Below, one piece after another: positions 34,190 through 59,200 of a stretch of DNA of 64,000 nt. Numbering within the stretch: the stretch's first letter is position 1; each line of letters opens with the position of its first letter. Below the pieces are notes generated by a model. That model had not been told where the DNA came from. It searched no databases and was given only the letters and a program-made list of their open reading frames with translations. Origin of the DNA: Blastocatellia bacterium (GTDB lineage Bacteria > Acidobacteriota > Blastocatellia > Pyrinomonadales > Pyrinomonadaceae); assembly GCA_003168335.1 (NCBI GenBank), contig PMSM01000013.1:1-64000 (forward strand). Reading direction: 5' to 3'. The position numbers and the translations under genes were made by a program.

Positions 34190-36721
34190 GTGCGCTGCAT
34201 TGCTTCGACAATCAGGTTGCGAGTGACGCGCGTTTTGCCACTGATGGCATGCGTCGCGCTCGCCTGCCTGTTCGCGGCGCCCGCCCGCTCTCAGGGGACC
34301 AATCCCGTCGATCGCAAGGTCGATAATCCGATCACGGACACGCCGAACGTTAATCCACTGCAACAGGATCAGCCGGTCCGGCCCACGTCACGGGGGAAAC
34401 CACTTCCAATACAGCCGGGCGACAGCTTGTCGGTCACTTGCGTTACGGAAACCGTCACCGGTCCCAAAGGCGCCCAGGTTTCTGTTTGCGAAGGCAACGT
34501 CGACGCGCGCATCGGCACGTATCGTTTGCAAGCCGACAAGATCACTGTCTATGACGCGACCAACAAAGTGATCGCCGAAGGCAACGTAGTCTTTGATCAG
34601 GGCGATCAGCAACGCATCACCGGCAGCCGGGCGGAATGGAATTACAAGACCAAGCTCGGCTTTTTTATCAACTCGACCGGTTACACCAATCAGACGAACG
34701 ACGGCACGCGCATGTACTTCATTGCTGATCGGGTTGAGAAGATCAGCCTGGACACGATCGTCGTCATCAACGGCGAGATCACTGCGTGCGATGAAGAAGT
34801 ACCGAAGTGGAGCTTTCACACGAAGAGAGCCAGGATCAAAACCGGCGATAAGGCAAAACTTTCCTCGCCCACATTTCGCGTCAAGAACATTCCCGTACTT
34901 TACTTGCCGTATGCTTCGTTGTCGCTGAAGCATACCGACCGCCAGTCCGGTTTCCTGACGCCGACCTTCAGCATCTCGGGCGCCAAGGGCTTCCGTGTTT
35001 CCGACGCTTACTACCTGGCGCTGGGCCGTTCGGCCGACTTCACTCTGCGCGGTGATTTATTCTCGAGCCGCGGCTTCGGCATCGGCGGAGATCTGCGCAC
35101 GCGCGCCAACTCGCGCTCTTTTTTCAACATGGGTTTCTATACGGTCAAAGATCGCATCTTGGGGCCCAAAGAGGACGCGCAACATCCTAATCAGGGCGGC
35201 TCGAGTTTCTATATTGACGCGGTCCACTATTTCCCGAATGGATTTTTGGCCGCGGCCGATGTGAACGTCACGTCCAATCTCGCCTTCCGTCAGATTTTCT
35301 CTGACTCGATTCAACAGGCGATTTCGCCCGAAGAGCGCTCGCAGGTTTTCATCAACAAGGACTACCACGCCTATAGCTTCAACTTCCGGCTGAACTCTCA
35401 GGCGACGTCTTTGCAGAACTCGCAGATTCGCATTCGCGAGTTGCCCAGCGTGTCGCTCGATCGTCGCCCGTCGCCGCTGCACTGGTTCAACAAATTCGCG
35501 GTCTATTACTCGTTTGAAAGCGCGGTGGAGGGAGTCAGCCGCAAAGAGACTCCCAGCGACCTGGCGACTTTTCGCGCGGAGGCGGGACGCGATCCGATCA
35601 TTACGCCTTCGATCGTGCAGCGTTTCGACTTTCATCCGAGCGTGTCCGTGCCGCTGAATTTCTCGGGGTGGTCATTAACTGCCACGGCCGGTGCGCGCGC
35701 GACTTATTACTCGAATTCGATTGACCCGGCCACGGGCCTGGTGTCGCCGCGCGACGTGGTGCGGGGCTATGGCGAGTTTGAGTTGGACCTGCGCCCGCCG
35801 GCATTGGCGCGGAACTTTCGACGCAGTGACGGGTCAGTCTGGTTTCGACACGTGATCGAGCCTTATCTGATCTATCGACGCGTCGCCGGCATCGGCAACT
35901 TTGATCAGATTATTCGTTTTGATTATGTCGACGCGATTACGGACACTAACGAGATTGAATACGGCATTACGAATCGCTTCTACACCCGGCGATCGACTGA
36001 GACCGTAGGCAAGAAGGCCCAGCGCGGGGCCCGCGGCAAGAAATCGCTGTCGACCCAGCCTTACGAAGCACTGTCGATCACGATCCGCGGCAAGTATTTT
36101 TTTGATCCGTACTTTGGCGGCGCGCTGATCGCGGGCCGGCGCAATCAGTTCGATGCGATCGATACTCTTTCCGGGTTTAGTTATGGAGCGGTGCCGCGCA
36201 AGTTTTCACCGCTGAACGTCGACATGCGTTTTCGCCCGACAGAGCATCTGTTTGCCGACTTTCGCGCGGACCTTGATACTCATGGCGGCGGGTTGCGGGC
36301 AATGGCCGCCAGCCTTGGCATCAATCGCAACCTGATCCAGGCGTTTTCGACCTTTTATTACACAAGGGCGGTCGAGCTGGTGCCCAGCCTGCAGCAGTTC
36401 GCAGATGCGCAGGGCAGAGAACCGGGCACGTTGCGCGGTTCGCAATGGAGCCCTTCGGTTTTTCTTGGCAATCGTGAGAAAGGATTGTTCGGCGGGCTTT
36501 CGCTCTTCTTTGATTTCCAGAATCACCCGTTTGCCAACAGCAATCGATCGCTCATTAGTTCGACGGCGACCGTTGGCTATACCTGGAAGTGCTGTGCGGT
36601 CACGGTGCAGGACTTCACTTTTAATGTGGGGCTGCGCAACGAGAATCGATTTGTTTTCGCCTTTCGGCTAAATGGCATCGGGACCTTCGGGACCGAGAAG
36701 ATTGGCCAGTGGGCGAAGTAG
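34190..36721 (+). CDS. lptD: LPS-assembly protein LptD
   Basis: LptD is the outer-membrane beta-barrel through which LPS reaches the cell surface. 843 residues. A signal peptide (LPLMACVALACLFAAPARSQ) precedes an OstA/LptA-like jellyroll (about 75-200) with LQADKITVYDATNKVIAEGN, VVFDQGDQQRITGSRAEW and YLPYASLSLKHTDRQSGFL, then a barrel of many aromatic strands ending in FRLNGIGTFG. Cysteines at CVTETV, SVCEGN and TWKCCAVTV may form the disulfides known in LptD. Start GTG at 34190; a GTG at 34223 is possible. Confidence 0.93.
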   Translation: MRCIASTIRLRVTRVLPLMACVALACLFAAPARSQGTNPVDRKVDNPITDTPNVNPLQQDQPVRPTSRGKPLPIQPGDSLSVTCVTETVTGPKGAQVSVCEGNVDARIGTYRLQADKITVYDATNKVIAEGNVVFDQGDQQRITGSRAEWNYKTKLGFFINSTGYTNQTNDGTRMYFIADRVEKISLDTIVVINGEITACDEEVPKWSFHTKRARIKTGDKAKLSSPTFRVKNIPVLYLPYASLSLKHTDRQSGFLTPTFSISGAKGFRVSDAYYLALGRSADFTLRGDLFSSRGFGIGGDLRTRANSRSFFNMGFYTVKDRILGPKEDAQHPNQGGSSFYIDAVHYFPNGFLAAADVNVTSNLAFRQIFSDSIQQAISPEERSQVFINKDYHAYSFNFRLNSQATSLQNSQIRIRELPSVSLDRRPSPLHWFNKFAVYYSFESAVEGVSRKETPSDLATFRAEAGRDPIITPSIVQRFDFHPSVSVPLNFSGWSLTATAGARATYYSNSIDPATGLVSPRDVVRGYGEFELDLRPPALARNFRRSDGSVWFRHVIEPYLIYRRVAGIGNFDQIIRFDYVDAITDTNEIEYGITNRFYTRRSTETVGKKAQRGARGKKSLSTQPYEALSITIRGKYFFDPYFGGALIAGRRNQFDAIDTLSGFSYGAVPRKFSPLNVDMRFRPTEHLFADFRADLDTHGGGLRAMAASLGINRNLIQAFSTFYYTRAVELVPSLQQFADAQGREPGTLRGSQWSPSVFLGNREKGLFGGLSLFFDFQNHPFANSNRSLISSTATVGYTWKCCAVTVQDFTFNVGLRNENRFVFAFRLNGIGTFGTEKIGQWAK

Positions 36722-39531: not shown

Positions 39532-40077
39532 GTGAAAAATCAAATAAGCAGAAAGAGGTCCACTGTGGCAAAGAAATTCGAGCGTGTGCACGTCTTTGGC
39601 ATCATCGCGGCCATCGCCGTTCTGGTTGTGGGCGCCGTGACCGTCCTGTCGCGCCAACCCGCCACGGCGAAGGAAGCGAAAAAACAAGAGACGGCTTCTG
39701 TGATGCCTGCTGTGATCCCTGATCAGCCGAAGAAGAATTACGTCACCGTCAAGGTGGGCGGCCAGGACGTTAAGATTGATAGCCAAACCGGACAGATACA
39801 GGAACTCACACCCGAAGAGGCCCAGAGACTAGCCGCCGGACTCAAACCGATGCTCAACAAATCCAGCGACGGGCTGGTCACGGTCCAACATCCCGATGGC
39901 TCGATGTCGATGGATCTTCAGGGCCATTTTCAGAACGTCGCAGTCGCGAGGGTAAACAAGGACGGCACCGTCTCTGAATCCTGCGTCGATAATCCGCGCG
40001 CGGCGGGCGCGTTCTTCGGAATCGATCCGAAACAAATTGAAAACGCACCCAATCGCGTTAAGCCCACTGGAAATTAG
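39532..40077 (+). CDS. Membrane-anchored hypothetical protein, upstream of the protease
   Basis: 181 residues starting GTG at 39532. A positively charged N-terminus (KNQISRKRSTVAKKFERV) precedes one span (FGIIAAIAVLVVGAVTVL, about 22-40), so an anchored periplasmic protein is likely. The rest has two blocks, VTVKVGGQDVKIDSQTGQIQ and HPDGSMSMDLQGHFQNVAVA, and a C-terminal FGIDPKQIENAP. No family recognised. It ends 14 bases before the protease-like gene on the same strand, so co-expression is likely, which makes it a possible accessory or assembly factor for that secreted protein (inference). Confidence 0.65.
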   Translation: MKNQISRKRSTVAKKFERVHVFGIIAAIAVLVVGAVTVLSRQPATAKEAKKQETASVMPAVIPDQPKKNYVTVKVGGQDVKIDSQTGQIQELTPEEAQRLAAGLKPMLNKSSDGLVTVQHPDGSMSMDLQGHFQNVAVARVNKDGTVSESCVDNPRAAGAFFGIDPKQIENAPNRVKPTGN

Positions 40078-40091
40078 AATCATAATTAATA

Positions 40092-42674
40092 ATGAACCGG
40101 CTGCTCGCTAAAATCCCAGCACTCTTGCTCACTCTGACGGTGGGCCTGATTGCGTCTTCCTCAGCCTTCGCGACCGCCACAATTGTAATTCAGAACGCCG
40201 ACGCAGCGAACGTCGGTTTCAACGATCCGTCGGCGCCAGTGCCAAATCAGACGGGCAACAGTGGCACTACTTTGGGAGAGCAACGGCTGATTGCTTTTCA
40301 GGCCGCCGCGAATATCTGGGGCGCCACGCTGGTGAGCGGCCAGACAATCACCATTCACGCAAGTTGGTCGACCCAACTGACTTGTGGTACCACCTCAGGC
40401 GTATTGGGTTCCGCGGGCACGACCTCACTGCAAGCTAATTTCACGAATGCTGTGCTTCAGAATGCCTGGTACAGCGTCGCCCTTGCCGAAGCGCTGGCGC
40501 TAAAAAATCTAAACGGCGCGACGGCTGAGATCAACGCGCAGTTCAATTCGAATGTAGGTACGTCTACCTGTTTGACGAGCAGTCATTGGTATTACGGGCT
40601 CGATGGTCTTCACGGGAACGGTGGGCTTGATTTGGTCACAGTTCTCCTTCACGAATTCGGACACGGTTTGGGGTTCGCGTCATTCACCGACGAGAGCACC
40701 GGTGTACAGCCCGGAACGCCGCCGGGACTTCCCAGCGTTTTCGACTTTTTTCTGCTTGATAAAACCACCGGTAAGCACTGGCCGGTCATGACTAACGCTG
40801 AGCGCCAGGCGTCTGCCATCAACGCCCCTAATTTGGTATGGGATGGCCCGCAGGTAACGAGTGACGCCGCTGGTACTGTGTTGACCGTAGGAAAGGATGC
40901 ATCAGGGCACCCGTTGATTTACTCGATCAACCCGGTAGAGACCGGTTCTTCGGTTTCACACTGGGACAAGTCGGAAAGTCCCAATCAACTGATGGAGCCG
41001 AGCATTAATAGTGATCTCACTCACAGCGTCAGTATTGGTACCTTTCGTCCGGATTTGACCTTCTCTGTGTTGAGAGACATCGGCTGGTGTGCCGGTTGTG
41101 CGCAACCGCCGCCGCCATCGCCGACGCCGACACCATCACCGCCGCCGAACGACAACTTTGCCAGCTCACAGGTCATTGGTGGATGTTCAGGCAGCGTTAC
41201 GGGCTCGAATATTTTGGCTACCAAGGAAGCAGGCGAGCCAACCCAGCTTGCGGCCAGTTCAGGAAGCATTAGATCTGTCTGGTACCAATGGCAAGCTCCG
41301 AGTACCGGCAGCGCAACCATAACGACCAGCGGCAGCGATTTTGATACGATTCTTTCGGTGTACACCGGAAGTAGCGTGGGGGGCCTGACTCTGGTTCCCA
41401 ACGGCACCAACGACGACGCCGTACCTGGTTCCGATGTAACCAGCAGTGTAACCATCAACGTCACGCAAGGCACGCTCTATAGTATCGCGGTGAACGGCTA
41501 CGATAATCAACTTGATGGTGGCGACACCGGCAACATTAAGCTCAACTGGAGCGAAAGTAGTTGCGCGCCGCCGCCAGCAAAGGTGCGTCTAACGGCTACG
41601 GATTTCCCCATCAATGAAGGCGACCCGGCCGGGTTTGTGACTATTAGGGTGTTCAGGGAAGGAGATGCAACCAGCGCGGCGAGCGTCAACTACGCCACGT
41701 CCGACACGGCCGGCCTGACGGTTTGTTCTCAAGGCGGTACGGGGAAAGCAAGTGAACGATGCGACTATGCGACAAGTTTAGGAACGCTGAGCTGGGCCGC
41801 GGGCGAGGCCGGCACGAAGAGCTTCAACATCCCGATAATTAATGATGCCATCGTCGAAGGAAATGAAACTTTCAATGTCACGTTGAGTAGTCCGACAGGC
41901 GTAAGTTTGGGAACGCCATCTACAGCAACGGTGACCATTCTGGACGATGACAGCAATCCGCCGGCACCGAATCCGATAGACGGAGTAGATTTCTTCATTA
42001 CCCAGCAGTACATAGATTTCCTGGGCCGGATGCCGGATCAGGGTGGATTTACGAACTGGCATAACACTCTGGCCCCATGCCCGAATGGAGGATTCGGAGA
42101 AGCTCCTACTTCGGATCCTACTTCGAATTGCGATCGCTTACATGTGGCGGCTGGGTTCTTTCAATCACAAGAATTCCTGGATCGGGGCTACTTTGCATTT
42201 TGCTTTTACATGGTCAGCTACAATCAGCGGCCGACCTATGCGCAGTTCATTCCGGACATGGCGCAGGTCGGAGGACCGAAGTCACCAGCGGAAGAACAAG
42301 CGAGTAAAGCTGCCTTCGCAGATGCTTTTGTATTGCGGTCCGATTTTGTCACCAAATATCCTGGGCTAAGCGGACAGCCCCTGGCTAACGCACTTTGGGT
42401 GACAGCCGGGTTACCCGGTAGCCCTATCAATGCAGGTGCCATGACCAACGGCCAAATCCTACGCACCATAGTGGAGACTTCTGCTGCCTTCAACAAGTTC
42501 CTGCCCGATGGGACGGTGGCGATACAATACTTTGGGTTCTTAAGACGTGACCCGGACACGATCGGTTATCAGAACAACCTGACGACGTTGAGGAACGATC
42601 CGAATAACCTGCGTCACATGATCTTCATCTTTATCTATTCGAGCGAGTATCGCGGCCGGTTTGGCACGCCTTAG
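40092..42674 (+). CDS. Secreted metzincin-like protease with Calx-beta and DUF4214-type tail
   Basis: 860 residues. Signal peptide (LLLTLTVGLIASSSAFA). A zinc-protease-like domain (about 30-335) has HEFGHGLGFASFTD (H187, E188, H191) and a likely Met-turn in NQLMEPS (M301). After a Pro linker comes a PPC-like beta domain (about 353-488; SDFDTILSVYTGSS, LYSIAVNGYDN), then Calx-beta (497-620; VTIRVFREGDATSAASVNYA, TATVTILDDD) with two Cys (C545, C557), and the tail (629-860). The tail shows DUF4214-like helices (FFITQQYIDFLGRMPDQGGF, QYFGFLRRDPDTIGYQNN) and the Cys pair of APCPNGGFGE..NCDRLH. ATG at 40092. First of the five tail-bearing genes. Confidence 0.82.
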   Translation: MNRLLAKIPALLLTLTVGLIASSSAFATATIVIQNADAANVGFNDPSAPVPNQTGNSGTTLGEQRLIAFQAAANIWGATLVSGQTITIHASWSTQLTCGTTSGVLGSAGTTSLQANFTNAVLQNAWYSVALAEALALKNLNGATAEINAQFNSNVGTSTCLTSSHWYYGLDGLHGNGGLDLVTVLLHEFGHGLGFASFTDESTGVQPGTPPGLPSVFDFFLLDKTTGKHWPVMTNAERQASAINAPNLVWDGPQVTSDAAGTVLTVGKDASGHPLIYSINPVETGSSVSHWDKSESPNQLMEPSINSDLTHSVSIGTFRPDLTFSVLRDIGWCAGCAQPPPPSPTPTPSPPPNDNFASSQVIGGCSGSVTGSNILATKEAGEPTQLAASSGSIRSVWYQWQAPSTGSATITTSGSDFDTILSVYTGSSVGGLTLVPNGTNDDAVPGSDVTSSVTINVTQGTLYSIAVNGYDNQLDGGDTGNIKLNWSESSCAPPPAKVRLTATDFPINEGDPAGFVTIRVFREGDATSAASVNYATSDTAGLTVCSQGGTGKASERCDYATSLGTLSWAAGEAGTKSFNIPIINDAIVEGNETFNVTLSSPTGVSLGTPSTATVTILDDDSNPPAPNPIDGVDFFITQQYIDFLGRMPDQGGFTNWHNTLAPCPNGGFGEAPTSDPTSNCDRLHVAAGFFQSQEFLDRGYFAFCFYMVSYNQRPTYAQFIPDMAQVGGPKSPAEEQASKAAFADAFVLRSDFVTKYPGLSGQPLANALWVTAGLPGSPINAGAMTNGQILRTIVETSAAFNKFLPDGTVAIQYFGFLRRDPDTIGYQNNLTTLRNDPNNLRHMIFIFIYSSEYRGRFGTP

Positions 42675-42813
42675 TAGAAGTTGATTTCCAGCCAGGCTTA
42701 ATGTTCCCGGGAACATTCCCTCTTCAGGAGGCCTTTCGCTCCGGGCCCTGGCGAGCAGCAACGAACCATCGGCATGTCATCGCAGGGTACAGTCGAGACA
42801 CTCGCCCATCAAA

Positions 42814-45800
42814 ATGAAGCGTTCGAAGTTAATAATAATTCCGGCAGTTGCTCTCTTCCTCTTTTTCATGCTCGGAGGTTTCGGCTCGCTGGCCAGCGGC
42901 AGCAAACCTGGAAGCGGCGCGTCTCACCCGCGCGCGAGCAGTGGACCTTACAAACAAACCGCATCGAATACTAATGCTCAGATTGGTGCCCAGGATGACG
43001 GCGATGATTCTGATCCGGATCTGCCTCCCGGGATGCGCGGAGCCATCGATAAAGAAACTTATCTGCGGATGCGCGCCGAACAGATCGCGGCGCTTCGCGG
43101 GATCGATCTGGAGCACCCGGAGAATAACGATCCAGGCGCGCGCGGGAGAGCCATTCAGCAAATGGAGCAGCAAGAATCGAATTTGTCAGGACAGAATACG
43201 TTTCTCGGGAGGCTCGCCGCAGTGTTCGGGGTGAGTTCTGCGGTTGGAGGAACGTGGACTGCTTTAGGTCCGGCCCCGATTCCCAATGGTCAGACGACCA
43301 CCGTTCGGACAGCGGTTAGCGGTCGGGTCACGGCGATTGCCGTGCATCCGACGAACCCGGACATCGTATATGTCGGCACGGCGCAAGGCGGCGTATATCG
43401 AACAATCAATCACGGGCTAGCATGGACGGCGATCTTTGACTCGGCAAACACGCTGGCTATTGGTGCGGTAACAATCGATCCAAACGACACGACGCGAGTT
43501 TGGGTTGGGACTGGCGAAGGTAACTTTTCAGGGGACTCGTTTTTCGGCGTCGGGGTGTATCTCATCACGAACGCCGACACGTCCCCAATTCTGAATGGAC
43601 CATTCAATCGCGATGGTTCAAGCATAGACGTATTCACGTATCGCTCTGTGAATACGATTCTGGTTGCGCCTAATAATAGCAACATCGTATTTGTCGGTAC
43701 GTCTTCGGGAGCTAGCGGTCTTTCCGGTGATGTGGGTCCGACGCTCCCGGCACGCGGTTTATATCGCACGACCAACGCGCTTAGCGCGACCCCAACTTTT
43801 ACTCATTTGACCACTACTGCTGCGATCAACCCTGCTGCGACCAATATCGCGGTGCAAGACATGGTCTTTGATCCAAGCGATTCAACTGGAGAGACGATGC
43901 TGGTTGGACATCGCGACACTCTCGGGCAGAGCACTGGAGGCGCCTATCGCTCAATTAACGCAACTGATCCGACGCCGAGTTTCACCCGAACCTTAACCCT
44001 GACGGGCAGCGAGAGCATAAAGTTTGCGATCAATCACGTTGGCTCGACAGTTAATGTGCTGGCAGCAACGGGTGAATCCTCCTCGGGTTCATCTTGTTCG
44101 GTTGCGAGCCAGAGTGGAGCTTTGCACCGCTCAACGGATGGCGGTGTCACCTGGTCGTCGGCGATTCCCTCTGCCGGAGGCTTCTGCAAGGACCAGTGCG
44201 GCTACGATATCGCTGTCGCGTTGGATCTAACCGATGCCAATATCATCTATCTTGGCGGCGCATCGAATAGCACGTGTTCTGGGGTTTTGAAGAAGACAAG
44301 CGACGGCGGCCTCACTTTTCCCCGCAGCGACACTGGTTTGCATGCAGACACACATGTGATCGTTGTGGCACCTTCAAACCCAACGATTGTCTACACCGGC
44401 AGTGACGGCGGTGTGTGGAGGTCAATAGATAAAGGCGCTTCATGGACGAGCCTCAACACTGCGGGATTCAATGCCACACAGTTCGAGAGCATTGCAGTTC
44501 ATCCAATCGATCGTAATTATACTATCGGAGGCACGCAGGACAACGGCACTGAGTTTCTCGCGCCGGATGGCACCACTTGGATCCATTCAGATGACGGCGA
44601 CGGGGGCTATGCCCTCATTGACCAAAGCTCACCCGACACGATAAACGTCACGGCTTATCACACTTATTTCAATTTGTCCGGCTCGCAGATTGGTTTTGAG
44701 CGCGCCACCTCGACCGTATCGCCCGGTGATCCGTTCTGGAATATCCACTTGGGCTGTGGCGGAACATCGAATGGCATTAGTTGTTCAGATGCCGTGAATT
44801 TTTATGCTCCAATGGCGCTTGGTCCTGGTGGTTCTGGAAATCCGAATACTGTCTATTTCGGTTCAGATCGCCTCTATCGATCAAGCGATAAGGGCACGAC
44901 GATGTCAGTGGTGAGTCAGGGACCATTGGTCAATACGGTACCCATTAGCGCGATTGCAATTTCGCCGCAGGATGACAATTATCGGTTAGTTGGCCTCAAT
45001 AGCGGAGCATTGTGGTTCACTACTACAGGATCATCAACGCTTACCCAGATCGGCAGCGGTACGATACCTGCTGGCAGGTATATTTCGCGTATCGTCTTCG
45101 ATCCGACGAACAAGAACACGGCCTACATCGCGTTCGATGCCTACATGGGTAGCATCAGTGCCGCAAACTCGCATGTGTGGCGGGTGACGAATCTGAATAC
45201 CACTCCTTCGTTTGCAGCCATCAACGGATCGGGCATTACGGGGTTACCGGATGTGCCGGTAAATGCGTTTGCAGTTGATCCGGTGACCACCAACAATCTT
45301 TTCGCGGGCACCGACATCGGCGTCTTCAACTCAACCGACGGGGGTGCGAACTGGGAGCCCTACGGCACCGGCTTGCCACGCGTGGCAGTTTTTGACATGG
45401 CGATTCAAGGTCCTAATCGGGTCCTGCGCATCGCCACGCATGGTCGCGGCATGTGGGAGATTTCAATTGTCGCTACGCCGCCGCCAACGGTACGGTTAAC
45501 GGCCAGTGATTTTCCGGTCAGTGAAAATGTCGCTGCTGGTTTTGTGACGGTGAGCGTGATCAGGGAAGGAGATGCGACCAGCGCGGCGAGCGTCAACTAC
45601 GCCACGTCCGACACGGCCGGCCTGACGGTTTGTTCTCAAGGCGGTACCGGGAAAGCAAGTGAACGATGCGACTATGCGACAAGTTTAGGAACGCTGAGCT
45701 GGGCCGCGGGCGAGGCCGGCACGAAGACCTTCAACATCCCGATAATTAATGATGCCATCGTCGAAGGAAATGAAACTTTCAATGTGACGTTGAGTAGTCC

Positions 45801-46566
45801 GACCGGCGTAAGTTTGGGAACGCCATCTACAGCAACGGTGACCATCCTGGACGATGACGTAGCACCATCTACCAATCCGATAGACGGAGTGGATTTCTTC
45901 ATTACCCAGCAGTACATAGATTTCCTGGGCCGGATGCCGGATCAGGGCGGATTTACGAACTGGCATAACACTCTGGCCCCATGTCCGAATGGGGGATTCG
46001 GAGAGTTTGATAATCCGAATTGCGATCGCTTACACGTGGCTGCCGGATTCTTACAGTCGGCTGAGTTTTTGGATCGCGGATACTTTGCGTTTCGCTTCTA
46101 CATGGTGGCTTACCATCAGCCCCCAACGTACGCGCAGTTCATTCCGGACATGGCACAGGTTGGCGGTTCCAAGACTCCCGCAGAAGAAGAAGCCGCCAAA
46201 GTGGCCTTTGCGAATGCCTTCGTGCTGCAGTCGTCGTTCACCACCAAGTATCCCAGCTTGAGCGGGCAGGCGCTGGCCGAGGGGCTCTTGCAGACGGCTG
46301 GATTACCGGCGGGTTCATACAATGCCGGCGCGCAAACAAACGGACAAATCCTGCGTGGGATTGCGCAAAGTCAGGCCGCGCTGGACAAGTTTCTAACCGA
46401 AGGAACGGTGTCGATTCAATACTTCGCATTCCTGCGACGCGATCCGGATACTATCGGTTACCAGAACAACGTGGCCACCCTGAACCTCAATCCCAGTAAC
46501 TTGCGTCACATGATCTTCATCTTTATCTATTCGAGCGAGTATCGCGGCCGGTTTGGCACGCCTTAG
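42814..46566 (+). CDS. Secreted Asp-box (sortilin-like) propeller with Calx-beta and DUF4214-type tail
   Basis: 1250 residues. Hydrophobic signal (LIIIPAVALFLFFMLGGFGS). A large central region (about 140-890) carries repeated Asp-box/BNR motifs: HRSTDGGVTWSS, KTSDGGLTFPRS, RSIDKGASWTS, NSTDGGANWEPYGTGLPR; such repeats build a beta-propeller as in VPS10/sortilin or xyloglucanase-like proteins. Catalysis is not shown. Then Calx-beta (about 890-1015) and the tail to the end (GVDFFITQQYIDFLGRMPDQ). The Calx and last 45 codons are almost identical in DNA to the first copy, while the middle of the tail is diverged (MVAYHQPPTY, KTPAEEEAAKVAFANAF). ATG at 42814. Confidence 0.8.
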   Translation: MKRSKLIIIPAVALFLFFMLGGFGSLASGSKPGSGASHPRASSGPYKQTASNTNAQIGAQDDGDDSDPDLPPGMRGAIDKETYLRMRAEQIAALRGIDLEHPENNDPGARGRAIQQMEQQESNLSGQNTFLGRLAAVFGVSSAVGGTWTALGPAPIPNGQTTTVRTAVSGRVTAIAVHPTNPDIVYVGTAQGGVYRTINHGLAWTAIFDSANTLAIGAVTIDPNDTTRVWVGTGEGNFSGDSFFGVGVYLITNADTSPILNGPFNRDGSSIDVFTYRSVNTILVAPNNSNIVFVGTSSGASGLSGDVGPTLPARGLYRTTNALSATPTFTHLTTTAAINPAATNIAVQDMVFDPSDSTGETMLVGHRDTLGQSTGGAYRSINATDPTPSFTRTLTLTGSESIKFAINHVGSTVNVLAATGESSSGSSCSVASQSGALHRSTDGGVTWSSAIPSAGGFCKDQCGYDIAVALDLTDANIIYLGGASNSTCSGVLKKTSDGGLTFPRSDTGLHADTHVIVVAPSNPTIVYTGSDGGVWRSIDKGASWTSLNTAGFNATQFESIAVHPIDRNYTIGGTQDNGTEFLAPDGTTWIHSDDGDGGYALIDQSSPDTINVTAYHTYFNLSGSQIGFERATSTVSPGDPFWNIHLGCGGTSNGISCSDAVNFYAPMALGPGGSGNPNTVYFGSDRLYRSSDKGTTMSVVSQGPLVNTVPISAIAISPQDDNYRLVGLNSGALWFTTTGSSTLTQIGSGTIPAGRYISRIVFDPTNKNTAYIAFDAYMGSISAANSHVWRVTNLNTTPSFAAINGSGITGLPDVPVNAFAVDPVTTNNLFAGTDIGVFNSTDGGANWEPYGTGLPRVAVFDMAIQGPNRVLRIATHGRGMWEISIVATPPPTVRLTASDFPVSENVAAGFVTVSVIREGDATSAASVNYATSDTAGLTVCSQGGTGKASERCDYATSLGTLSWAAGEAGTKTFNIPIINDAIVEGNETFNVTLSSPTGVSLGTPSTATVTILDDDVAPSTNPIDGVDFFITQQYIDFLGRMPDQGGFTNWHNTLAPCPNGGFGEFDNPNCDRLHVAAGFLQSAEFLDRGYFAFRFYMVAYHQPPTYAQFIPDMAQVGGSKTPAEEEAAKVAFANAFVLQSSFTTKYPSLSGQALAEGLLQTAGLPAGSYNAGAQTNGQILRGIAQSQAALDKFLTEGTVSIQYFAFLRRDPDTIGYQNNVATLNLNPSNLRHMIFIFIYSSEYRGRFGTP

Positions 46567-46647
46567 TAGAAGTTGATCGCCACGCAGTGCACCTAAGAAG
46601 ATATCTTCAGGATGCCTTGCGCACCTGGAGCAGATGATCCGTCTTCT

Positions 46648-46958
46648 TCACCCGAGTACAGAGCGCAATTCGGTCAGCCTTAGGTCGGTCGTAGCCAACG
46701 ATGCGCCAGAGCCTAAGACTTCATGGATCCGGGCTAGATCATCGCGGGTCTCCGCCTTGTTGGGATCTTTTTGCCAGTAGAGCTTCACTAATGGCGACGG
46801 ACTTGCGGTAACTTTTCAGTGCAGCTTCCCTCTGGCCCAGGTCAGCGAGTGCTTGCCCGATGCCGAAGTATGTGATCGAAAGATCGCGCCCGTGTCCTGC
46901 GTCAGTCGGGTCGGCCTTAGCAAGAGGTTCGATTAAGGCCAGAGCTTTTTCGCGTAAG
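46648..46958 (-). pseudogene. Remnant of a TPR-containing protein
   Basis: Read on the minus strand, the stretch encodes tetratricopeptide-like sequence (ITYFGIGQALADLGQREAAL, then KSYRKSVAISEALLAK), then continues in another frame as DDLARIHEVLGSGASLA and TDLRLTELRSVLG with a stop at 46648-46650. One extra A in an A5 run (46768-46772) separates the frames. There is no start: the fragment begins right after the stop of the LuxR gene. Such C-termini occur in large TPR or Ser/Thr kinase proteins of this lineage (my recollection). It is probably a truncated, frameshifted remnant. Confidence 0.7.
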
Positions 46959-46959
46959 A

Positions 46960-47619
46960 CTAGATCAGTCCCGCGCGCTCGGCGCGACGAATCGCTTCCA
47001 GGCGACTATGTGAGTCGAGTTTATGCAGGATGTGCTGGACGTGATTGTTGACCGTAGTGGGGCTGATGTGCAGTTGGTCGGCGATGCTCCTGGTCGTGCT
47101 GCCTTTTGCCAGGAAGCGAAGAACCTCGCTCTCTCTGGCGCTAAGATCGCTCTTGCGCGCCGCCGTGCGTGAAGCGATCATCGCCACGGCTTGATCGGCG
47201 GGCAAGCTTGTGTTGCGGACCACGAAATCGCGGAACACCATCTCCAACCGCTTGCGCAGGTCGACAGGGCGGACGATGTGAATTGCATAGACCTCTGTCG
47301 AGCTGTTGGACTCGGCTATTACTACAGAGACGTTGCACCATTGTTCACCATCAACGGTTTGCACCTGTAAATCAAAACTCTCCAATGGATGGCGCTTGCT
47401 AATGGCTCGCCGCACCGTGCAATTTGCTGAGCAGACCACACCACACTCATCAATACCTTGAACAATTGTGCGACACGGTTGACCGATCGCTTGTTCGGCC
47501 GTAACGCCAAACAACTTCCCGTTTGCTTCGTTCCAAGCGACCACAACGCCCTCGCTGTTGACGACAAAGGCCGCATCTGAAGTGCCGTCGATTAGTTTTC
47601 TGAACTCTTCTTGACGCAT
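46960..47619 (-). CDS. PAS-LuxR transcriptional regulator
   Basis: 219 residues. N-terminal PAS domain (about 5-115): FRKLIDGTSDAAFVVNSEGV and VVAWNEANGKLFGVTAEQAI. Cysteines C49, C59, C63 and C67 near CRTIVQGIDECGVVCSANC could bind a metal or cluster. The C-terminal LuxR helix-turn-helix (about 150-219) is LSARESEVLRFLAKGSTTRS and IADQLHISPTTVNNHVQHIL. No phospho-receiver domain. It sits between the second and third tail-bearing secreted protein genes on the opposite strand; a role in their control is possible but unproven. ATG at 47619. Confidence 0.85.
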   Translation of the reverse strand: MRQEEFRKLIDGTSDAAFVVNSEGVVVAWNEANGKLFGVTAEQAIGQPCRTIVQGIDECGVVCSANCTVRRAISKRHPLESFDLQVQTVDGEQWCNVSVVIAESNSSTEVYAIHIVRPVDLRKRLEMVFRDFVVRNTSLPADQAVAMIASRTAARKSDLSARESEVLRFLAKGSTTRSIADQLHISPTTVNNHVQHILHKLDSHSRLEAIRRAERAGLI

Positions 47620-48069
47620 CGGTATGAGTTCATCATAAGAAATGATGTGAATTGATTATTGTGCAGGGAGGCTAAAAAGACAATCATGGGCGGATCAGTT
47701 CGGACCTCTCTACTAACCTGGTGAGACTGACTCAAGCAGAACTCAGGTTAGACGACGTCCTGCCTGGCAGGCAGCTAAGCAGGTAATAGAGAAATGAGGT
47801 TTCAGTGTGACCCAAACCGGACCTCCAGTGGGCCGATGGAGGCTAGGAACTTTAGCTCATCATGGAACGCCATTTATTAACCTTCTTACGGAATAATGAG
47901 TACCACCAATGAAGAAATTGCTAACTGCGGCAAGGAAAACATTTGGAATAGCACGTGCGCGAAAATGAAGGTAGAATCTGCACGCGCTGGACACGCCATA
48001 ACCACGAGGCGTGCAGACTCCTAATTACACGCACGCTGCGAATATCAGACGGAAGACCGGGGAGTCACT
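47620..48069. other. Intergenic stretch upstream of the third tail-bearing gene
   Basis: 450 bases between divergent genes. Perfect arms TCTGCACGC (47977-47985) and GCGTGCAGA (48009-48017) could form a hairpin in the 5' leader of the 48070 gene. CTGCCTGGCAGGCAG (47760-47774) is a near-palindrome. A 19-codon frame starting 47909 is too short to support. Confidence 0.35.
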
Positions 48070-50991
48070 ATGTCATTTAATAGGTTCAGCCGTTGGTTGC
48101 TAGTCTCTAAAATCAAAGGGAGGGTAAGGATCTGCGCATTTATCTTAGGTGTGACTTTCCTCTCGGTTCTGATTCTTCACGTCAGTGCGGGCTCGACGAA
48201 CCAGTCATCACAGTTTGATGGTAGCTACGACCACAAGCGGCCTGGCGATACCAGGCAATCCAAATCCTCGGCTGAACTCTTAAGAAAAGCGAAGACGCGC
48301 TCGAAAGCGCAACGAGCTCCGATTGCACAGCCTAAGCAGGACGATACCAAGGTGGTAAGCTCCGGCAAGGGCGCAGCGCAGACTGGCGTCGCCCGGCCGG
48401 AAGTATCCAGTGGCCCTGTTTACTCAAAGATTCCAGAGTTGACACCCGTACAAGCAAAGTCGCTTAAGCGGGAGTCCGAAGAGGAAGAGCCTATTGTGCC
48501 CGTGCAGCAAGGCAGAGTGTGGACCGAGATTCCCAAGCCAACGGATCCTCCAACCGAGCCTGTCTTCGGGGAAAGCGGTTTACACCAGATGTCTGGTTTA
48601 ATCTCGCCACAAGCCGCAAGTGATTTTAGGTATCAGCAAGTCACGGATTTGTCCTCCAACGGTAGCTTTTCTGAGATAAATGAACCAAGCGTCGCGAATA
48701 TGGGAAGCACTGTGTTCTTCACTGGCAACTGGTATGCGGCTCGGTCCACGAATGGAGGGCAGACTTTCACATATGTCAGCCCATTCACAACCTTCCCCAG
48801 CGTGAACGGTGGCTTCTGTTGTGATCAGGTGGTCAACTATGCGCCTAGCCAGGACATGATGCTTTGGGAAACGCAGTATTTGTCGGACGGCACAAGCAAC
48901 ACGATCCGGATTGCTCGCGCGGTAGGAAGCGCGGCAGTGGCGAACAACTCCTGGACCTCTTACAAATTCACCCCTCAGGATTTTGGTTTTCCAACTGGCA
49001 CCTATTTGGATTTTCCGAATCTGACGTTTGGATCCACATTCGTCTACCTGACAGAGAACGTGTTTACCTCAGGCGGCACCGATCAGGACAGCCACGGCAC
49101 CTTCACCGGCTCTGTGATCCTGCGCATTCGTCTTTCAGAGCTGGCGGCCGGGGGATCGATTAGCTACAACTATTATGCTCAGACGCGCTCCAGTTCGGAC
49201 GTAGGGAGCCTGCGCTGCACGGAAGGCGCCGGAGCGACGATTTATTGCGGTGGCTGGCGAACAACTTCGCAACTGCGAATTTTCCACTGGGACGACGGCG
49301 CAAGCTCGATTTTTTGGGACGATGTTAACGCCGCGGCCTTTACCACACTCGACAGAGGAAATGGCGTGGCCACGAGTCCTGATGGAACCAACTTTGCGGC
49401 AAGAGCAGACGGCAGGATTCTCGGAGCCTGGGTGGCAAACGGATTCATCGGATTTATGTGGGCGGCCAAGCAAGACTCGACCTTCCCGTATCCTTACACG
49501 ATCGTCGCGCGTTTCGATCAATTGACACGTGCTCGCGTTAGCCAAAACACGATCTGGAATTCGAGCGTTGCCTGGCTATATCCGACTGCCTCACCAAACA
49601 GCGCGGGCAATCTTGCAGGACTCCTCGCCTTTGGCGGTGGCGCAAACTATCCCGGAACGGATATCTGGATAGCTGACGACGTCGAGATTGGATTCAGTCC
49701 GGTCGGGCTGCATGGTTCAACCGGCGGCACTGCTGGACCAACCAGCAACAAGTGGGGAGACTACTTGACGGTTCGACCACACCGGGATTTCCCGAACACC
49801 TGGGTCGCAGCGGCTTACTCCCTAAAGAATGGAGGCTTGGGATCGAATGCTGTTCCGAGATATCTCTGGTTCGGAAGGGAGCGAGATTTCGGTTCGACAC
49901 CGTCCCCAACGGTACGGTTAACAGCTACGGATTTTCCGGTCAATGAAAACAGCAGTGCCGGTTTCGTGACTGTGAGCGTGATCCGGGAAGGAGATGCTAC
50001 CAGTGCGGCGAGCGTAAACTTCGCCACGTCCGACACGTCAAGCCTGAACGCGGCCTGTTCTCAAGGCGGTACGGGGAAAGCAAGTGAACGATGCGACTAT
50101 GCGACAAGTTTAGGAACGCTGAGCTGGGCCGCGGGCGAGGCCGGCACGAAGACCTTCAACATCCCGATAATTAATGATGCTCTCGTCGAAGGGACTGAAA
50201 CTTTCAATGTCACGTTGAGTAATCCGATAGGCGTAGGTTTGGGAACGCCATCTACAGCAACGGTGACCATTCTGGACGACGACGTAGCACCATCTACCAA
50301 TCCGATAGACGGAGTGGATTTCTTCATTACCCAGCAGTACATAGATTTCCTTGGCCGGATGCCGGATCAGGGTGGATTTACGAACTGGCATAACACACTG
50401 GCCCCATGTCCGAATGGAGGATTCGGAGAACCAGTTACTTCGAATTGCGATCGCTTACACGTGGCCGCCGGGTTCTTCCAATCGGATGAGTTTCTAAACC
50501 GCGGCTACTGGGCATTTTGCTTTTACATGGTCAGCTACAATCAGCGGCCGACCTATGCGCAGTTCATTCCGGACATGGCGCAGGTCGGAGGACCGAAGTC
50601 ACCAGCGGAAGAGCAAGCCAGTAAGGCTGCTTTCGCAGATGCTTATGTACAGCGAGCCGAGTTTGTCGCTAAATACGGTGCGCAAAGCGGACAGCCCCTG
50701 GCTAACGCCTTATGGCTGACAGCCGGGTTACCCGGTAGCCCGATCAACGCAGGTGTCATGACCAACGGCCAAATCTTACGCACCATAGTGGAGACTTCTG
50801 CGGCCTTCAACAAGTTCCTGCCCGATGGCACGGTGGCGATTCAATACTTCGGGTTCTTAAGACGCGACCCGGACACGATCGGTTATCAGAACAACCTGAC
50901 GACGTTGAGGAACGATCCGAATAACCTGCGTCACATGATCTTCATCTTTATCTATTCGAGCGAGTATCGCGGCCGCTTTGGCACGCCATAA
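48070..50991 (+). CDS. Secreted BNR/sialidase-like protein with Calx-beta and DUF4214-type tail
   Basis: 973 residues. An N-terminal hydrophobic stretch (ICAFILGVTFLSVLILHVSA, about 21-40) serves as signal or anchor, then a low-complexity charged region (about 50-165). The middle (about 190-610) is rich in aromatic and Asp/Gly strands (FFTGNWYAARSTNGGQTFTY, GFCCDQVVNYAPSQDMMLWE, NKWGDYLTVRPHRDFPNTWV), resembling six-bladed propeller exo-enzymes; no active site is claimed. Calx-beta (about 613-735) and the tail follow. The tail is nearly identical to that of the 40092 gene in DNA (SYNQRPTYAQFIPDMAQVGG, PKSPAEEQASKAAFADA). ATG at 48070 with GGGGAG about 6 bases upstream. Confidence 0.8.
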   Translation: MSFNRFSRWLLVSKIKGRVRICAFILGVTFLSVLILHVSAGSTNQSSQFDGSYDHKRPGDTRQSKSSAELLRKAKTRSKAQRAPIAQPKQDDTKVVSSGKGAAQTGVARPEVSSGPVYSKIPELTPVQAKSLKRESEEEEPIVPVQQGRVWTEIPKPTDPPTEPVFGESGLHQMSGLISPQAASDFRYQQVTDLSSNGSFSEINEPSVANMGSTVFFTGNWYAARSTNGGQTFTYVSPFTTFPSVNGGFCCDQVVNYAPSQDMMLWETQYLSDGTSNTIRIARAVGSAAVANNSWTSYKFTPQDFGFPTGTYLDFPNLTFGSTFVYLTENVFTSGGTDQDSHGTFTGSVILRIRLSELAAGGSISYNYYAQTRSSSDVGSLRCTEGAGATIYCGGWRTTSQLRIFHWDDGASSIFWDDVNAAAFTTLDRGNGVATSPDGTNFAARADGRILGAWVANGFIGFMWAAKQDSTFPYPYTIVARFDQLTRARVSQNTIWNSSVAWLYPTASPNSAGNLAGLLAFGGGANYPGTDIWIADDVEIGFSPVGLHGSTGGTAGPTSNKWGDYLTVRPHRDFPNTWVAAAYSLKNGGLGSNAVPRYLWFGRERDFGSTPSPTVRLTATDFPVNENSSAGFVTVSVIREGDATSAASVNFATSDTSSLNAACSQGGTGKASERCDYATSLGTLSWAAGEAGTKTFNIPIINDALVEGTETFNVTLSNPIGVGLGTPSTATVTILDDDVAPSTNPIDGVDFFITQQYIDFLGRMPDQGGFTNWHNTLAPCPNGGFGEPVTSNCDRLHVAAGFFQSDEFLNRGYWAFCFYMVSYNQRPTYAQFIPDMAQVGGPKSPAEEQASKAAFADAYVQRAEFVAKYGAQSGQPLANALWLTAGLPGSPINAGVMTNGQILRTIVETSAAFNKFLPDGTVAIQYFGFLRRDPDTIGYQNNLTTLRNDPNNLRHMIFIFIYSSEYRGRFGTP

Positions 50992-51538: not shown

Positions 51539-51670
51539 ATGCGGTCCGTTATTCAACTGTCCAGCGTTGCGGTAGCGACGTTACTACTTAGCTCGCTCGT
51601 GTTTGTTTCGCAAAGCGTCCAAGCTGCAACTCTAACTGTTTCAACAACAGAAAAAGGAACCCTCTCATGA
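51539..51670 (+). CDS. Short signal-peptide ORF coupled to the next gene
   Basis: 43 codons: MRSVIQLSSVAVATLLLSSL is followed by VFVSQSVQA, a textbook signal peptide, and a 14-residue mature stub ATLTVSTTEKGTLS. Its start has GAGGA about 10 bases upstream, and its TGA overlaps the ATG of the next gene (ATGA), so ribosomes could pass on. Either it is a short leader peptide, or the decayed 5' end of a larger secreted gene: the stub resembles the first strand of CSLREA-type beta-helix proteins. I cannot decide. Confidence 0.4.
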   Translation: MRSVIQLSSVAVATLLLSSLVFVSQSVQAATLTVSTTEKGTLS

Positions 51671-53454
51671 ATTATCTTAATAAGTATGTCTCCGCAAGTT
51701 TTCTTATCATCGCCGCGCTCTTGTTCTCGGCCTCGTCTCGCCCGGCTTTGGCTCAAAGCGTGCCACCGCTGGGCGCGGCCGAGAGCTTTGCTGCCCTGGC
51801 TGGCACAACCCTAACCGCTACGGGCGCTGGGACCGTGATCTCCGGCAATGTGGGAGTCAGCCCCGGACTTGCGGTGACTGGATTTCCGCCGGCTGTAGTA
51901 GTGAATGGCCAAATATACACGGGGGCGGGATCTCTCGCCGGCCCGGCCCAGGACAGTGCCCTCATTGCCTACAATAATCTCAAAGGGCAGACGTGCCCTG
52001 CCGCAAACAACTTGACCGGTAAGATTCTGGGACAGACCCAGCTCTCGGTCAGTCCAGGCGTCTATTGTTTTGACACGTCGGTTCAGTTGAACGCAATACT
52101 CACTCTCAACGATGGAGGCGATCCCAACGCGATCTTCATTTTCCAGATTGGGACCACGCTCACGACCGCCAGCAGCTCGCAGGTGATCATGAGCAGTGGC
52201 GGTCGAGGCAAAAATGTGTTTTGGCAGGTCGGCAGTTCTGCGACTATTGGCACATCAACCACCTTCCGCGGACACATTATTGCAAACACGAGCATTACCC
52301 TGACCACCAGCGCCAGCACCACCGGCAGAATCTTTGCGCTAAATGGCGCGGCGACGATTGATACTGTTGTTCTCGACGCAGTGCCGACGGCCATTCAATT
52401 CAGCGCTTCGTCCTATACCGTGGGTGAGGAGGTCCCGCAGCTCATCGTCCAGGTCACTCGCACCGGGGACACGACCGGTGCGGCGACCGTCAAGTACGCC
52501 ACGAGCGACACGGCGGGTCTGCAAAGTTGTTCGGTTGTTAACGGCAAGGCCTCGGAGCGCTGCGATTATGAAACTACCATAGGCACGTTGAGGTTCGCGG
52601 CCGGGGAAGCAAGTAAGACTTTTAATATTCTGATGATCAACGACGTGTACGTTGAAGGCCCCGAAACCTTCACCTTGGCGTTGAGTGCGCCCACAGGGGC
52701 TAGCCTGGGTGCACCCAGCACGGCGACGGTGACCATCCTGGATAACGACTTTGTGGCAGCGGCGAATCCGATTGATGGGGTGGACTTCTTCGTGACCCAG
52801 CAGTACCTGGACTTTCTGGCCCGGGTGCCTGACACAGTTGGATTTGCTAACTGGGTGGCCACCTTGAGCCCCTGTCCGAATGGCGGCTTTGGCGAGCTTG
52901 CTAATCCAGGCTGCGACCGGGTACACGTCTCCGCCGGGTTTTATCAGTCGGCAGAGTTTCAGGACCGTGGCTATTTTGCTTATCGCTTTTATGAGGTAGG
53001 CCTGGGTCGCAAACCCCTCTACAGGGAGTTTATCCCTGACATGGCGGACGTGGGCGGAGCGCAGTCGCCGGCCGAAGAAGCGCTCAGTAAAGCGACGTAC
53101 GTTGATGAGTTTGTCTTGCGCCCCGAGTTTGTCACAAAATACAGTGGGCTAAGCGGACAGCCCCTGGCTAACGCAGTCTGGCTGACAGCCGGGTTACCTG
53201 GTAGCCCGATCAGCGCAGGTAGCATGACAAACGGCCAAATCTTACGCGCCGTAGTGGAAACTTCTGCTGCCTCCAACAAGTTTTTCAACCGCGGATTTGT
53301 CTCAATGCAATACTTTGGGTATCTGAGACGTGATCCGGACACCATAGGATTCACGAACTGGGTGGCCACCCTGGATGCCGACTCGAGTAATTTCCGGCAT
53401 ATGATCTTCGGCTTCATCTACTCGGATGAATACCGCCATAGATTTGGGCCGTAA
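51667..53454 (+). CDS. Secreted ice-binding-like (DUF3494) protein with Calx-beta and DUF4214-type tail
   Basis: 595 residues. A signal peptide (SASFLIIAALLFSASSRPALA) is followed by a DUF3494-like domain (about 35-225): LGAAESFAALAGTTLTATGA, GTVISGNVGVSPG, NAIFIFQIGTTLTTASSSQV, FWQVGSSATIGTSTTFRGHI. Such domains bind ice or serve as general surface adhesion modules. Then Calx-beta (about 242-360; LIVQVTRTGDTTGAATVKYA) with a Cys pair, and the tail (about 368-595) in the FYEVGLGRKPLYREFIPDMA variant shared with the 54937 gene. ATG at 51667 overlaps the stop of the short upstream ORF. Confidence 0.83.
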   Translation: MNYLNKYVSASFLIIAALLFSASSRPALAQSVPPLGAAESFAALAGTTLTATGAGTVISGNVGVSPGLAVTGFPPAVVVNGQIYTGAGSLAGPAQDSALIAYNNLKGQTCPAANNLTGKILGQTQLSVSPGVYCFDTSVQLNAILTLNDGGDPNAIFIFQIGTTLTTASSSQVIMSSGGRGKNVFWQVGSSATIGTSTTFRGHIIANTSITLTTSASTTGRIFALNGAATIDTVVLDAVPTAIQFSASSYTVGEEVPQLIVQVTRTGDTTGAATVKYATSDTAGLQSCSVVNGKASERCDYETTIGTLRFAAGEASKTFNILMINDVYVEGPETFTLALSAPTGASLGAPSTATVTILDNDFVAAANPIDGVDFFVTQQYLDFLARVPDTVGFANWVATLSPCPNGGFGELANPGCDRVHVSAGFYQSAEFQDRGYFAYRFYEVGLGRKPLYREFIPDMADVGGAQSPAEEALSKATYVDEFVLRPEFVTKYSGLSGQPLANAVWLTAGLPGSPISAGSMTNGQILRAVVETSAASNKFFNRGFVSMQYFGYLRRDPDTIGFTNWVATLDADSSNFRHMIFGFIYSDEYRHRFGP

Positions 53455-53555: not shown

Positions 53556-54692
53556 ATGCACATTGGAATCGACGGACTTCCGCTTCTGACACCGCTCACC
53601 GGTGTGGGTCATTACACCCTTGAACTCGCTCGTGCCCTGGCATCCATGGCTCCGACTGATGAGTTTGAGCTGATAGCGCCTCGCCCGCCATCGCTTGCTG
53701 CTGCAGAAAAGCTGAACCAGGCGACAGCCGCGAACCTGCGCTGGGTCCAGTCGAAGAGATGGCGGCTTAACCGATACTGGTGGGGCGCCGGTCTGCCGCT
53801 CCACTTGAGGCGCGGCTCGCTGGATTTATTTCACGGCACAAACTTTGAAATTCCTTTCTGGGACAAGCGACCAGCCGTCCTTACTATTCATGATCTTTCT
53901 TCGCTCTTGCATCCTGAGAAGCATGAGAAGCGACTCGCCACACGCGCGCGCCGGCGTTTGCCGCTGATGGTGAAATCGGCAGCGATGATTATCACGCCGA
54001 CTGAAAGCGTGAAGCGCGAAGTGTGTGCGCATTTGGGCGTCGAAGCGAGCAAGGTGGCGGTCACGCCGTTAGCACCACGAACGGTATTTAGGAAGATCGA
54101 GTGTGAGCAGGCCATCGAGACGCGCAAGCGCCTGGGCATCAGAGACGATTTCATCCTCTTTGTGGGCACGATCGAGCCCCGCAAGAATCTACTTACACTT
54201 GCTCGGGCGTTCGATGAGATTCTGCGTCAGACATCTCTTCGTCCCCAGCTCGTGATCGCCGGTCAGGAAGGCTGGCTAATGAATGACCTCTTCCAATTTA
54301 TCAATAGCGCCGGCATTCAAGATGATGTTTGCTTTACAGGTTATCTCGGTGACGATGATCTCCGCGATCTTTATTCCTCGTGCACTCTCTTCGTCTACCC
54401 TTCCTTATATGAAGGCTTCGGGCTGCCGCCGCTCGAAGCGATGGCCTGCGGCGCGCCGGTAATAACAAGCAGGATTCCTCCCATAATGGAAACCGTCGAA
54501 GGGGCCGCGTGCCTGGTCGACCCCGCCAACGCGCAGGAGCTTGCCAGCGCGATTGTCCGACTGCTCGAAGACCCCGGAGCAAGAGAGGACCTTTCGAGGC
54601 TGGGAGCACGGCAGGTTCGAAACTTTACCTGGGAGCGGACAGCTTCGCTCACGCTGGAGATCTATAAAAAGGTACTTGGATTAACGGAGTAG
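53556..54692 (+). CDS. Glycosyltransferase family 4 (GT-B)
   Basis: 378 residues. Typical GT4 layout: N-terminal GLPLLTPLTGVGHYTLELAR, then LDLFHGTNFEIPFW, a central HDLSSLLHPEKHEK, and the C-terminal nucleotide-sugar domain with DFILFVGTIEPRKNLLTLAR, VCFTGYLGDDDLRDLYSSC, and the EX7E motif in YPSLYEGFGLPPLEAMACGA. It transfers a sugar from a nucleotide donor, in the cytoplasm. It lies next to the tail-bearing genes and 5' of a bidirectional terminator. Confidence 0.92.
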   Translation: MHIGIDGLPLLTPLTGVGHYTLELARALASMAPTDEFELIAPRPPSLAAAEKLNQATAANLRWVQSKRWRLNRYWWGAGLPLHLRRGSLDLFHGTNFEIPFWDKRPAVLTIHDLSSLLHPEKHEKRLATRARRRLPLMVKSAAMIITPTESVKREVCAHLGVEASKVAVTPLAPRTVFRKIECEQAIETRKRLGIRDDFILFVGTIEPRKNLLTLARAFDEILRQTSLRPQLVIAGQEGWLMNDLFQFINSAGIQDDVCFTGYLGDDDLRDLYSSCTLFVYPSLYEGFGLPPLEAMACGAPVITSRIPPIMETVEGAACLVDPANAQELASAIVRLLEDPGAREDLSRLGARQVRNFTWERTASLTLEIYKKVLGLTE

Positions 54693-54936: not shown

Positions 54937-55788
54937 TTAGAATCTGTTCCGGTATTCATCCGAATAGATGAACCCAAAGATCATATGTCGGAAGTTATTC
55001 GGATCAGCATTCAGTGTATCTACCCAGTTCTGGAACCCAATTGTATCCGGATCACGTCGCAGGTAACCAAAGTACTCCATTGACACAAACCCGCGGTTGA
55101 GAAACTTGTTGAAGGCCGCAGAAGTTTCCGCTATGGCGCGTAAGATTTGCCCGTTTGTCATGGCGCCTGCACTGATCGGGCTACCAGGTAACCCGGCTGT
55201 CAGCCAAACTGCGTTAGCCAGGGGCTGTCCGCTTAGCCCAGGGTACTTAGCGACAAACTCAGGGCGCAATACAAAAGCGTCGGTGAATGCCGCTTTGCTG
55301 GCGTCTGACTGGGCCGGTGACTGCGAACCACCAACCAACGCCATGTCAGGGATAAACTCCTTGTAGAGGGGTCTGCGACCCAGGCCGACCTCATAAAAGC
55401 GATAAGCAAAATAGCCACGGTCCTGAAACTCCACCGACTGATAAAAGCCCGCCGAGACATGCACCCGATCGCACTGCGGATTAGCAAACTCGCCAAAGCC
55501 GCCGTTCGGGCAATTGTTCAAGGTGAGGTTCCAGTTTGCGAACCCTACCGAGTCCGGAAAGCGGCCTAAGAAATCGATATACTGCTCCTGGACGAAGAAG
55601 TCTATATCGTCAATAGTGATGACCTGGTTTGTGCCGGGTCGCAAACGCACTGGCTTAACCTTAACATTGCCGTAGAAGAGCACCGAAGGAAGTCCCGGTG
55701 TTTCCGTTTCAATCCGGAGAGTAGGAGCCTGACCTAGCACAGATAGGCTGGCAAAGGCTATTATTAAAAACGCAATACTGATCTTCAT
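54937..55788 (-). CDS. Secreted DUF4214-type tail protein, minimal member
   Basis: 283 residues: signal peptide (ISIAFLIIAFASLSVLGQ), a short beta segment (about 23-58), then the shared tail (about 59-283) in the same variant as the 51667 gene: IDDIDFFVQEQYIDFLGRFP, FYEVGLGRRPLYKEFIPDMA, EYFGYLRRDPDTIGF, FGFIYSDEYRNRF. No Calx-beta. It is the only member on the minus strand and shows that the tail can be almost the whole protein. The Cys pair NNCPNGGFGEF..PQCDRVH is kept. ATG at 55788. Confidence 0.8.
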   Translation of the reverse strand: MKISIAFLIIAFASLSVLGQAPTLRIETETPGLPSVLFYGNVKVKPVRLRPGTNQVITIDDIDFFVQEQYIDFLGRFPDSVGFANWNLTLNNCPNGGFGEFANPQCDRVHVSAGFYQSVEFQDRGYFAYRFYEVGLGRRPLYKEFIPDMALVGGSQSPAQSDASKAAFTDAFVLRPEFVAKYPGLSGQPLANAVWLTAGLPGSPISAGAMTNGQILRAIAETSAAFNKFLNRGFVSMEYFGYLRRDPDTIGFQNWVDTLNADPNNFRHMIFGFIYSDEYRNRF

Positions 55789-59096: not shown

Positions 59097-59200
59097 TCAG
59101 GCCGTGCCTCCAGGCCCGGGCAGATTTTCATTCAACCACTTGGAAACTGTGCGCCGCGGCAAATTCGCTTTGTCTTAAGTCAGATTTCAATCGGGTTGCG

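Follow-up and report, generated by a model that had tools for sequence, protein, structure and literature searches.

Mosaic identity of Calx-beta/DUF4214 cassettes in a Blastocatellia genome is consistent with gene conversion among paralogous tails

How can copies of one gene end be almost identical in one segment and deeply diverged in the next? This question was raised by five genes in the window, i.e., the whole stretch of 64,000 nucleotides of contig PMSM01000013.1 (Blastocatellia bacterium, Pyrinomonadaceae) that was analyzed. The genome concerned (G000 in the comparisons below) comprises 5.16 Mb in 14 contigs, and its relatives in the searched collections were metagenome-assembled Pyrinomonadaceae and Acidobacteria. 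The five genes are the following:

Gene A, 40092..42674, + strand: secreted, with a metalloprotease-like host domain followed by Calx-beta and a DUF4214 tail (Pfam PF03160 and PF13946 above cut-off).
Gene B, 42814..46566, + strand: sortilin/BNR-type host domain, Calx-beta, tail with diverged middle (PF15902, PF03160, PF13946).
Gene C, 48070..50991, + strand: unassigned host domain, Calx-beta, tail (PF03160, PF13946).
Gene D, 51667..53454, + strand: ice-binding-like host domain, Calx-beta, second tail variant (PF11999, PF03160, PF13946).
Gene E, 54937..55788, − strand: signal peptide, short conserved prefix and tail, with no host domain or Calx-beta (PF13946).

The host domains of genes A–D are mutually unrelated; that of gene A matched the NF038122 metalloprotease model, under that model's cut-off. 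The DUF4214 family (PF13946) exceeded its curated cut-off in all five genes, with 37–52 bits versus 23.2, and Calx-beta (PF03160) exceeded its own in genes A–D, with no Calx-beta Pfam match in gene E. Two further tail copies of the same genome, on contigs C2 and C13, showed 57% and 54% amino acid identity to the gene C tail, respectively. An additional DUF4214 match, missed by the tail search, was located just outside the window, within a frame of 559 aa that lies about 11 kb beyond gene E (G000:C8:66431-66580). The cluster sits between LptD and glycosyltransferase genes and encloses, between genes B and C, a PAS-LuxR type regulator (46960-47619, − strand).

The initial annotation had described the Calx-beta blocks of genes A, B, and C as nearly identical, which held at 92–95% overall, with 100% identity confined to the core. 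Between A 41650-42060, B 45557-45964, and C 49979-50389, identity was 95.3% (A-B), 91.9% (A-C), and 93.9% (B-C). Over the region A 42080-42609, values of 69.9% and 68.5% were obtained for A-B and B-C, yet 90.3% for A-C. The divergence noted earlier in the B tail (MVAYHQPPTY versus MVSYNQRPTY) was found as claimed, and so was the agreement of the A and B 3′ ends: 76 identical bases in all, of which 62 precede the stop and 14 follow the last codon (the stop plus 11), and identity ceases 11 bases beyond the stop. A short stretch reported as common to four genes, CTAAGCGGACAGCCCCTGG, was exact in the genes starting at 40092, 51667, and 54937, while the gene at 48070 has its last 17 bases alone. 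The shared and diverged segments are listed here:

A 41653..42077 = B 45560-45981, + strand: A-B tract, 18 mismatches among 158 polymorphic sites, with A and B strongly diverged elsewhere (p = 0.0002, floor).
B 45534..46002 = C 49956-50427, + strand: B-C tract (p = 0.0002, floor).
A 42610..42685 = B 46502-46577, + strand: A-B 3′ tract of 76 identical bases, reaching 11 past the stop (p = 0.0018, coding part).
A 42461..42657 = C 50778-50974, + strand: A-C tract, 5 mismatches among 98 polymorphic sites (p = 0.019).
A 42360..42492 = D 53145-53275 = E 55242-55110, + strand in A: internal tract crossing the two tail variants (p = 0.0002; segment trees).
C 50658..50809 = D 53124-53275 = E 55260-55110, + strand in C: the same internal tract in C (p = 0.0002).
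46005..46500, + strand: diverged middle of the B tail, pS about 0.6–1.0 versus A and C over most of the stretch.

Synonymous difference (pS) was computed in 20-codon windows along the cassette. Between A and B, it ranged from 0 to 0.10 over most of the Calx-beta block, rose to 0.59–0.93 in tail codons 213–372, and was 0 in the final 20 codons. Values for A-C were low nearly throughout. When A or C was compared with D, pS was mostly 0.6–1.0, but 0.13–0.36 within codons 273–332. Within one cassette, the synonymous difference between copies thus ranges from 0 to about 0.9; silent-site divergence is far from uniform, and duplication followed by plain drift does not fit as the sole cause.

Permutation tests were performed with a GENECONV-style re-implementation. 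For the pairs AB, BC, AD, and CD, p was at the floor (0.0002), both for all polymorphic sites and for silent sites, so a random spread of the differences was rejected at silent sites as well. A second set of up to 50,000 permutations was restricted to silent codons of the tail in the 21 own-genome pairs, yielding p = 2e-5 (AB) and 6e-5 (BC). Eight of the 21 pairs reached q < 0.05, seven of them inside the cluster. With pairwise p at or near the floor, the mosaic is beyond chance.

Trees of tail segments were in conflict with one another. Four segments grouped A+B+C (94–100%, neighbor joining), while the fifth, of 207 bp, grouped A+C+D+E with B outside (99% by neighbor joining; 87/96 by likelihood). 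An ACDE clade outside the fifth segment was rejected (p-AU 1.25e-17); an ABC clade inside the 207-bp segment was weakly disfavored (p-AU 0.07), with no rejection at 0.05.

Comparison with orthologous loci provided a direction for one of the tracts. The gene E ortholog of G041, a genome of a different genus, lies beside the same glycosyltransferase (74% identity). DNA identity between the two along the tail dropped over about 180 bp:

55078..55260, − strand: replaced internal tract in E, 39–44% identity to the syntenic G041 ortholog versus 57–85% in the rest of the tail.

In the same 180 bp, E was 84–95% identical to A, C, and D. At this site, 13 residues are present in all five cluster copies, compared to 20 in the G041 ortholog and in the other two own-genome copies, i.e., the cluster form is 7 shorter. 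Since the ortholog match was lost where the neighbor match and the short form were gained, the segment was received from the pool of the cluster. This polarized tract is the decisive case for replacement of the ancestral long form by the short form of the cluster. G041 carries two E-like genes with different tails, and old paralogy with differential loss can therefore explain some of the E discordance.

Across the 20 genomes compared, the tails (105 in total) cluster largely by genome rather than by host gene. The tree required 35 changes of genome label versus 74 with shuffled labels, and the nearest relative was found in the same genome for 68 of 103 tails and in another genome for 35. The 16 tails of G017, including that of its E ortholog, together made up a single clade. 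Lineage-specific duplication could account for part of this genome-wise clustering. Within one family (G001-G024), genomes ranged from having no tail copy to having 86.

Orthologs of gene E, recognized by prefix and synteny, were present in most tail-bearing genomes examined. The prefix showed a mean identity of 75% between genomes, compared to 45% for the tails, and a single clade of E tails was rejected (p-AU 3.8e-11). The gene A host domain and the preceding small gene were syntenic in the same-genus genomes G005, G003, and G006, where the gene A orthologs carry a PA domain, a different tail, and no Calx-beta; a single clade of gene A tails was likewise rejected (p-AU 5e-60). The small gene itself (39532-40077, just upstream of gene A) has no assigned function and is kept in the three same-genus genomes at 38–61% identity.

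In the rpoB tree, the genome of the window grouped with its genus-mates. Unlike rpoB, its tails joined those of other genera, and a single clade for the genus was rejected (p-AU 1e-4). All seven copies belong to a type present in other genera and absent from the sampled genus-mates, which may reflect either replacement of the tail type in the whole set or differential loss of old types.

Conversion tests were also applied to other genomes. Five pairs reached q < 0.05 in G017 (best pair p = 4e-5 of 120) and one pair in G020 (best pair p = 2e-5 of 300); both best pairs are neighbors on one contig. The remaining five of six neighbor pairs in G020 were not significant, and no significant mosaic was detected in G005, G009, G011, G023, or G041.

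Several other histories were weighed against these data. If one Calx-beta/tail block had only been copied whole onto different hosts and had then drifted, with no later exchange, the wholly different hosts, the sharp block edges (one where Calx-beta begins, the other shortly after the stop), and the absence of Calx-beta from the same-genus gene A orthologs would all be accounted for. A single history of this kind is, however, unable to yield adjacent synonymous divergences of 0 and 0.9 in one pair, and it is contradicted by the conflicting segment trees. As the sole cause, duplication and capture is refuted by the mosaic and was considered unlikely; as the origin of the cassettes, it is likely. 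Alternatively, homologous recombination could have brought diverged alleles into each locus from outside, with other strains or species as donors in place of copies in the same genome. Such import agrees with the deep divergence of the middle of B and with G000 tails being closer to another genus than to same-genus tails, against rpoB. It leaves unexplained the segments shared in one genome across loci A, C, D, and the inverted E, and was judged quite improbable.

Near-identical repeats of 100–470 bp are present, as an assembly artefact would require, but the genome is contained in 14 contigs, and collapse or chimera formation swaps flanks and cannot make identity alternate with saturation inside a pair. 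A like pattern in independent genomes also makes this explanation very improbable. Regional constraint on DNA or protein that mimics conversion, to which the strongly conserved residues of the tail could point, was assigned an almost negligible probability: stretches identical between A and B are saturated between A and D and vice versa, at silent sites too. Because the tract positions differ pair by pair, such constraint is unable to explain the tracts.

With a probability of roughly 0.85, the five tails are paralogous cassettes patched repeatedly by ectopic homologous recombination, most simply by non-reciprocal gene conversion. Segmental conversion or cassette shuffling, as the initial annotation had read the locus, is thereby supported by the silent-site mosaic, the permutations, the conflicting trees, and the polarized E tract. 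Exchange would have involved tracts of about 50–470 bp and copies lying a few kb from each other. The recombination is presumably RecA-type and non-reciprocal, although a single genome fits conversion or reciprocal exchange. Segmental conversion suits the short internal tracts and cassette replacement suits gene A, so both processes seem to be active; whole-block replacement has probably occurred at least in gene A, whose same-genus orthologs have a different tail and no Calx-beta. Within a genome, the tails would accordingly show partly concerted evolution, and a tail could be replaced while its host domain continued to be passed on vertically.

Ectopic conversion among bacterial paralogs is known from the Helicobacter pylori bab genes (PMC4552749), and gene conversion from a Mycobacterium tuberculosis outbreak (PMC12046097). 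In these cases, as far as they are described in the two sources, mosaic genes likewise arose through ectopic conversion of paralogs. Unlike there, the unit exchanged here is a C-terminal module on unrelated hosts and no whole-gene family, and antigenic variation is not implied. Paralog conversion as a process is thus known, while the family, the cassette anatomy, and the replacement of tails between species seem undescribed.

As a natural example of gene conversion between paralogs, the locus is clean; it comes from a phylum that has received little study, and what is exchanged is a module of a protein, not an entire gene. Orthology assignments based on domains break down at the tail of these proteins: orthologous proteins of related species carry unrelated-looking tails, and neighbors within one genome carry matching ones.

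The tail measures about 240 aa, is predicted as an all-helical domain (pLDDT 93.6), contains strongly conserved residues, ends in ..EYRxRFGxP, and is the C-terminal end in nearly every copy examined. The best PF13946 matches fell either in the initial or in the final part of the tail. Among solved structures, no fold match to the tail was obtained at E ≤ 0.001. The N-terminal, LPS-bound domain of RsaA (6t72) gave a weak Foldseek match (E 2.8, TM 0.34), which is a lead only, and the Caulobacter vibrioides control genome contained no match to the DUF4214 family. The last ~100 residues showed weak profile similarity to the phycobilisome linker (best E = 1.5e-4, CpcN); membership in that family was not supported, with no Pfam match, a best Foldseek E of 0.86, and no phycobilisome context.

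Known C-terminal sorting domains were compared as well. T9SS C-terminal domains are similarly C-terminal modules on many secreted proteins, but they are beta-sandwiches, in contrast to the predicted helical tail here; no NCBIfam sorting-domain model matched at E ≤ 0.1, and this candidate was rejected. A weak sub-cut-off PorZ match concerned the host domain of gene B, not the tail. MYXO-CTERM and PEP-CTERM, as presented in PMC11980579, also equip dozens of a genome's secreted proteins with one shared C-terminal module. Their tag consists of a short motif, a helix, and a basic end, unlike the globular all-helical domain predicted here; the tail is without the short motif, transmembrane helix, and basic end, had no NCBIfam match, and was rejected as a member of either.

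In the library searched, literature on DUF4214 is almost absent, and none was found that pairs it with Calx-beta; nor was any retrieved on Calx-beta accompanied by unknown domains in Acidobacteria. In segmented filamentous bacteria, DUF4214 has been described as a likely surface-anchoring domain (PMC12780176). The family is the same, and here it forms a module of ~240 aa that is almost always C-terminal. This description, together with the C-terminal place and the sharing of the tail by unrelated secreted domains, makes it plausible, at about even odds, that the tail serves to retain secreted proteins at the surface. If so, the copies of one cell would be under selection to remain compatible with a common partner, and genome-specific tail types predict specificity for the cell's own surface. 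The partly conserved LptD/glycosyltransferase setting suggests a possible link of the tail to envelope glycan. More speculatively, and on balance doubtful, the DUF4214 tail might act as an address label that is specific to each genome in this family of Acidobacteriota and is held uniform through conversion because all copies have to fit a single partner, perhaps the glycan of the cell's own envelope; the tail type would then be switchable set-wide in a lineage without any change of the host domains.

The order in the window is LptD, tail cluster, GT4 glycosyltransferase, gene E, and GT2 glycosyltransferase (34190-36721, 53556-54692, and 56074-57303), and it is partly conserved in other genera. 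In G041, LptD is followed by two tail genes and the gene E ortholog adjoins GT2. A tail gene lies ahead of GT4 in G040, and the gene E ortholog adjoins GT4 in G019, G020, and G011.

Two further observations concern tails outside the window. The G011 homolog (L152:244-2796) of the window protein at 59048-60928 bears a DUF4214 tail, and the window copy is without one. In G020 (L122-L141), all listed tails except that of gene E carry an extra end of ~10 residues (..SNxEC..), which is absent from most other genomes.
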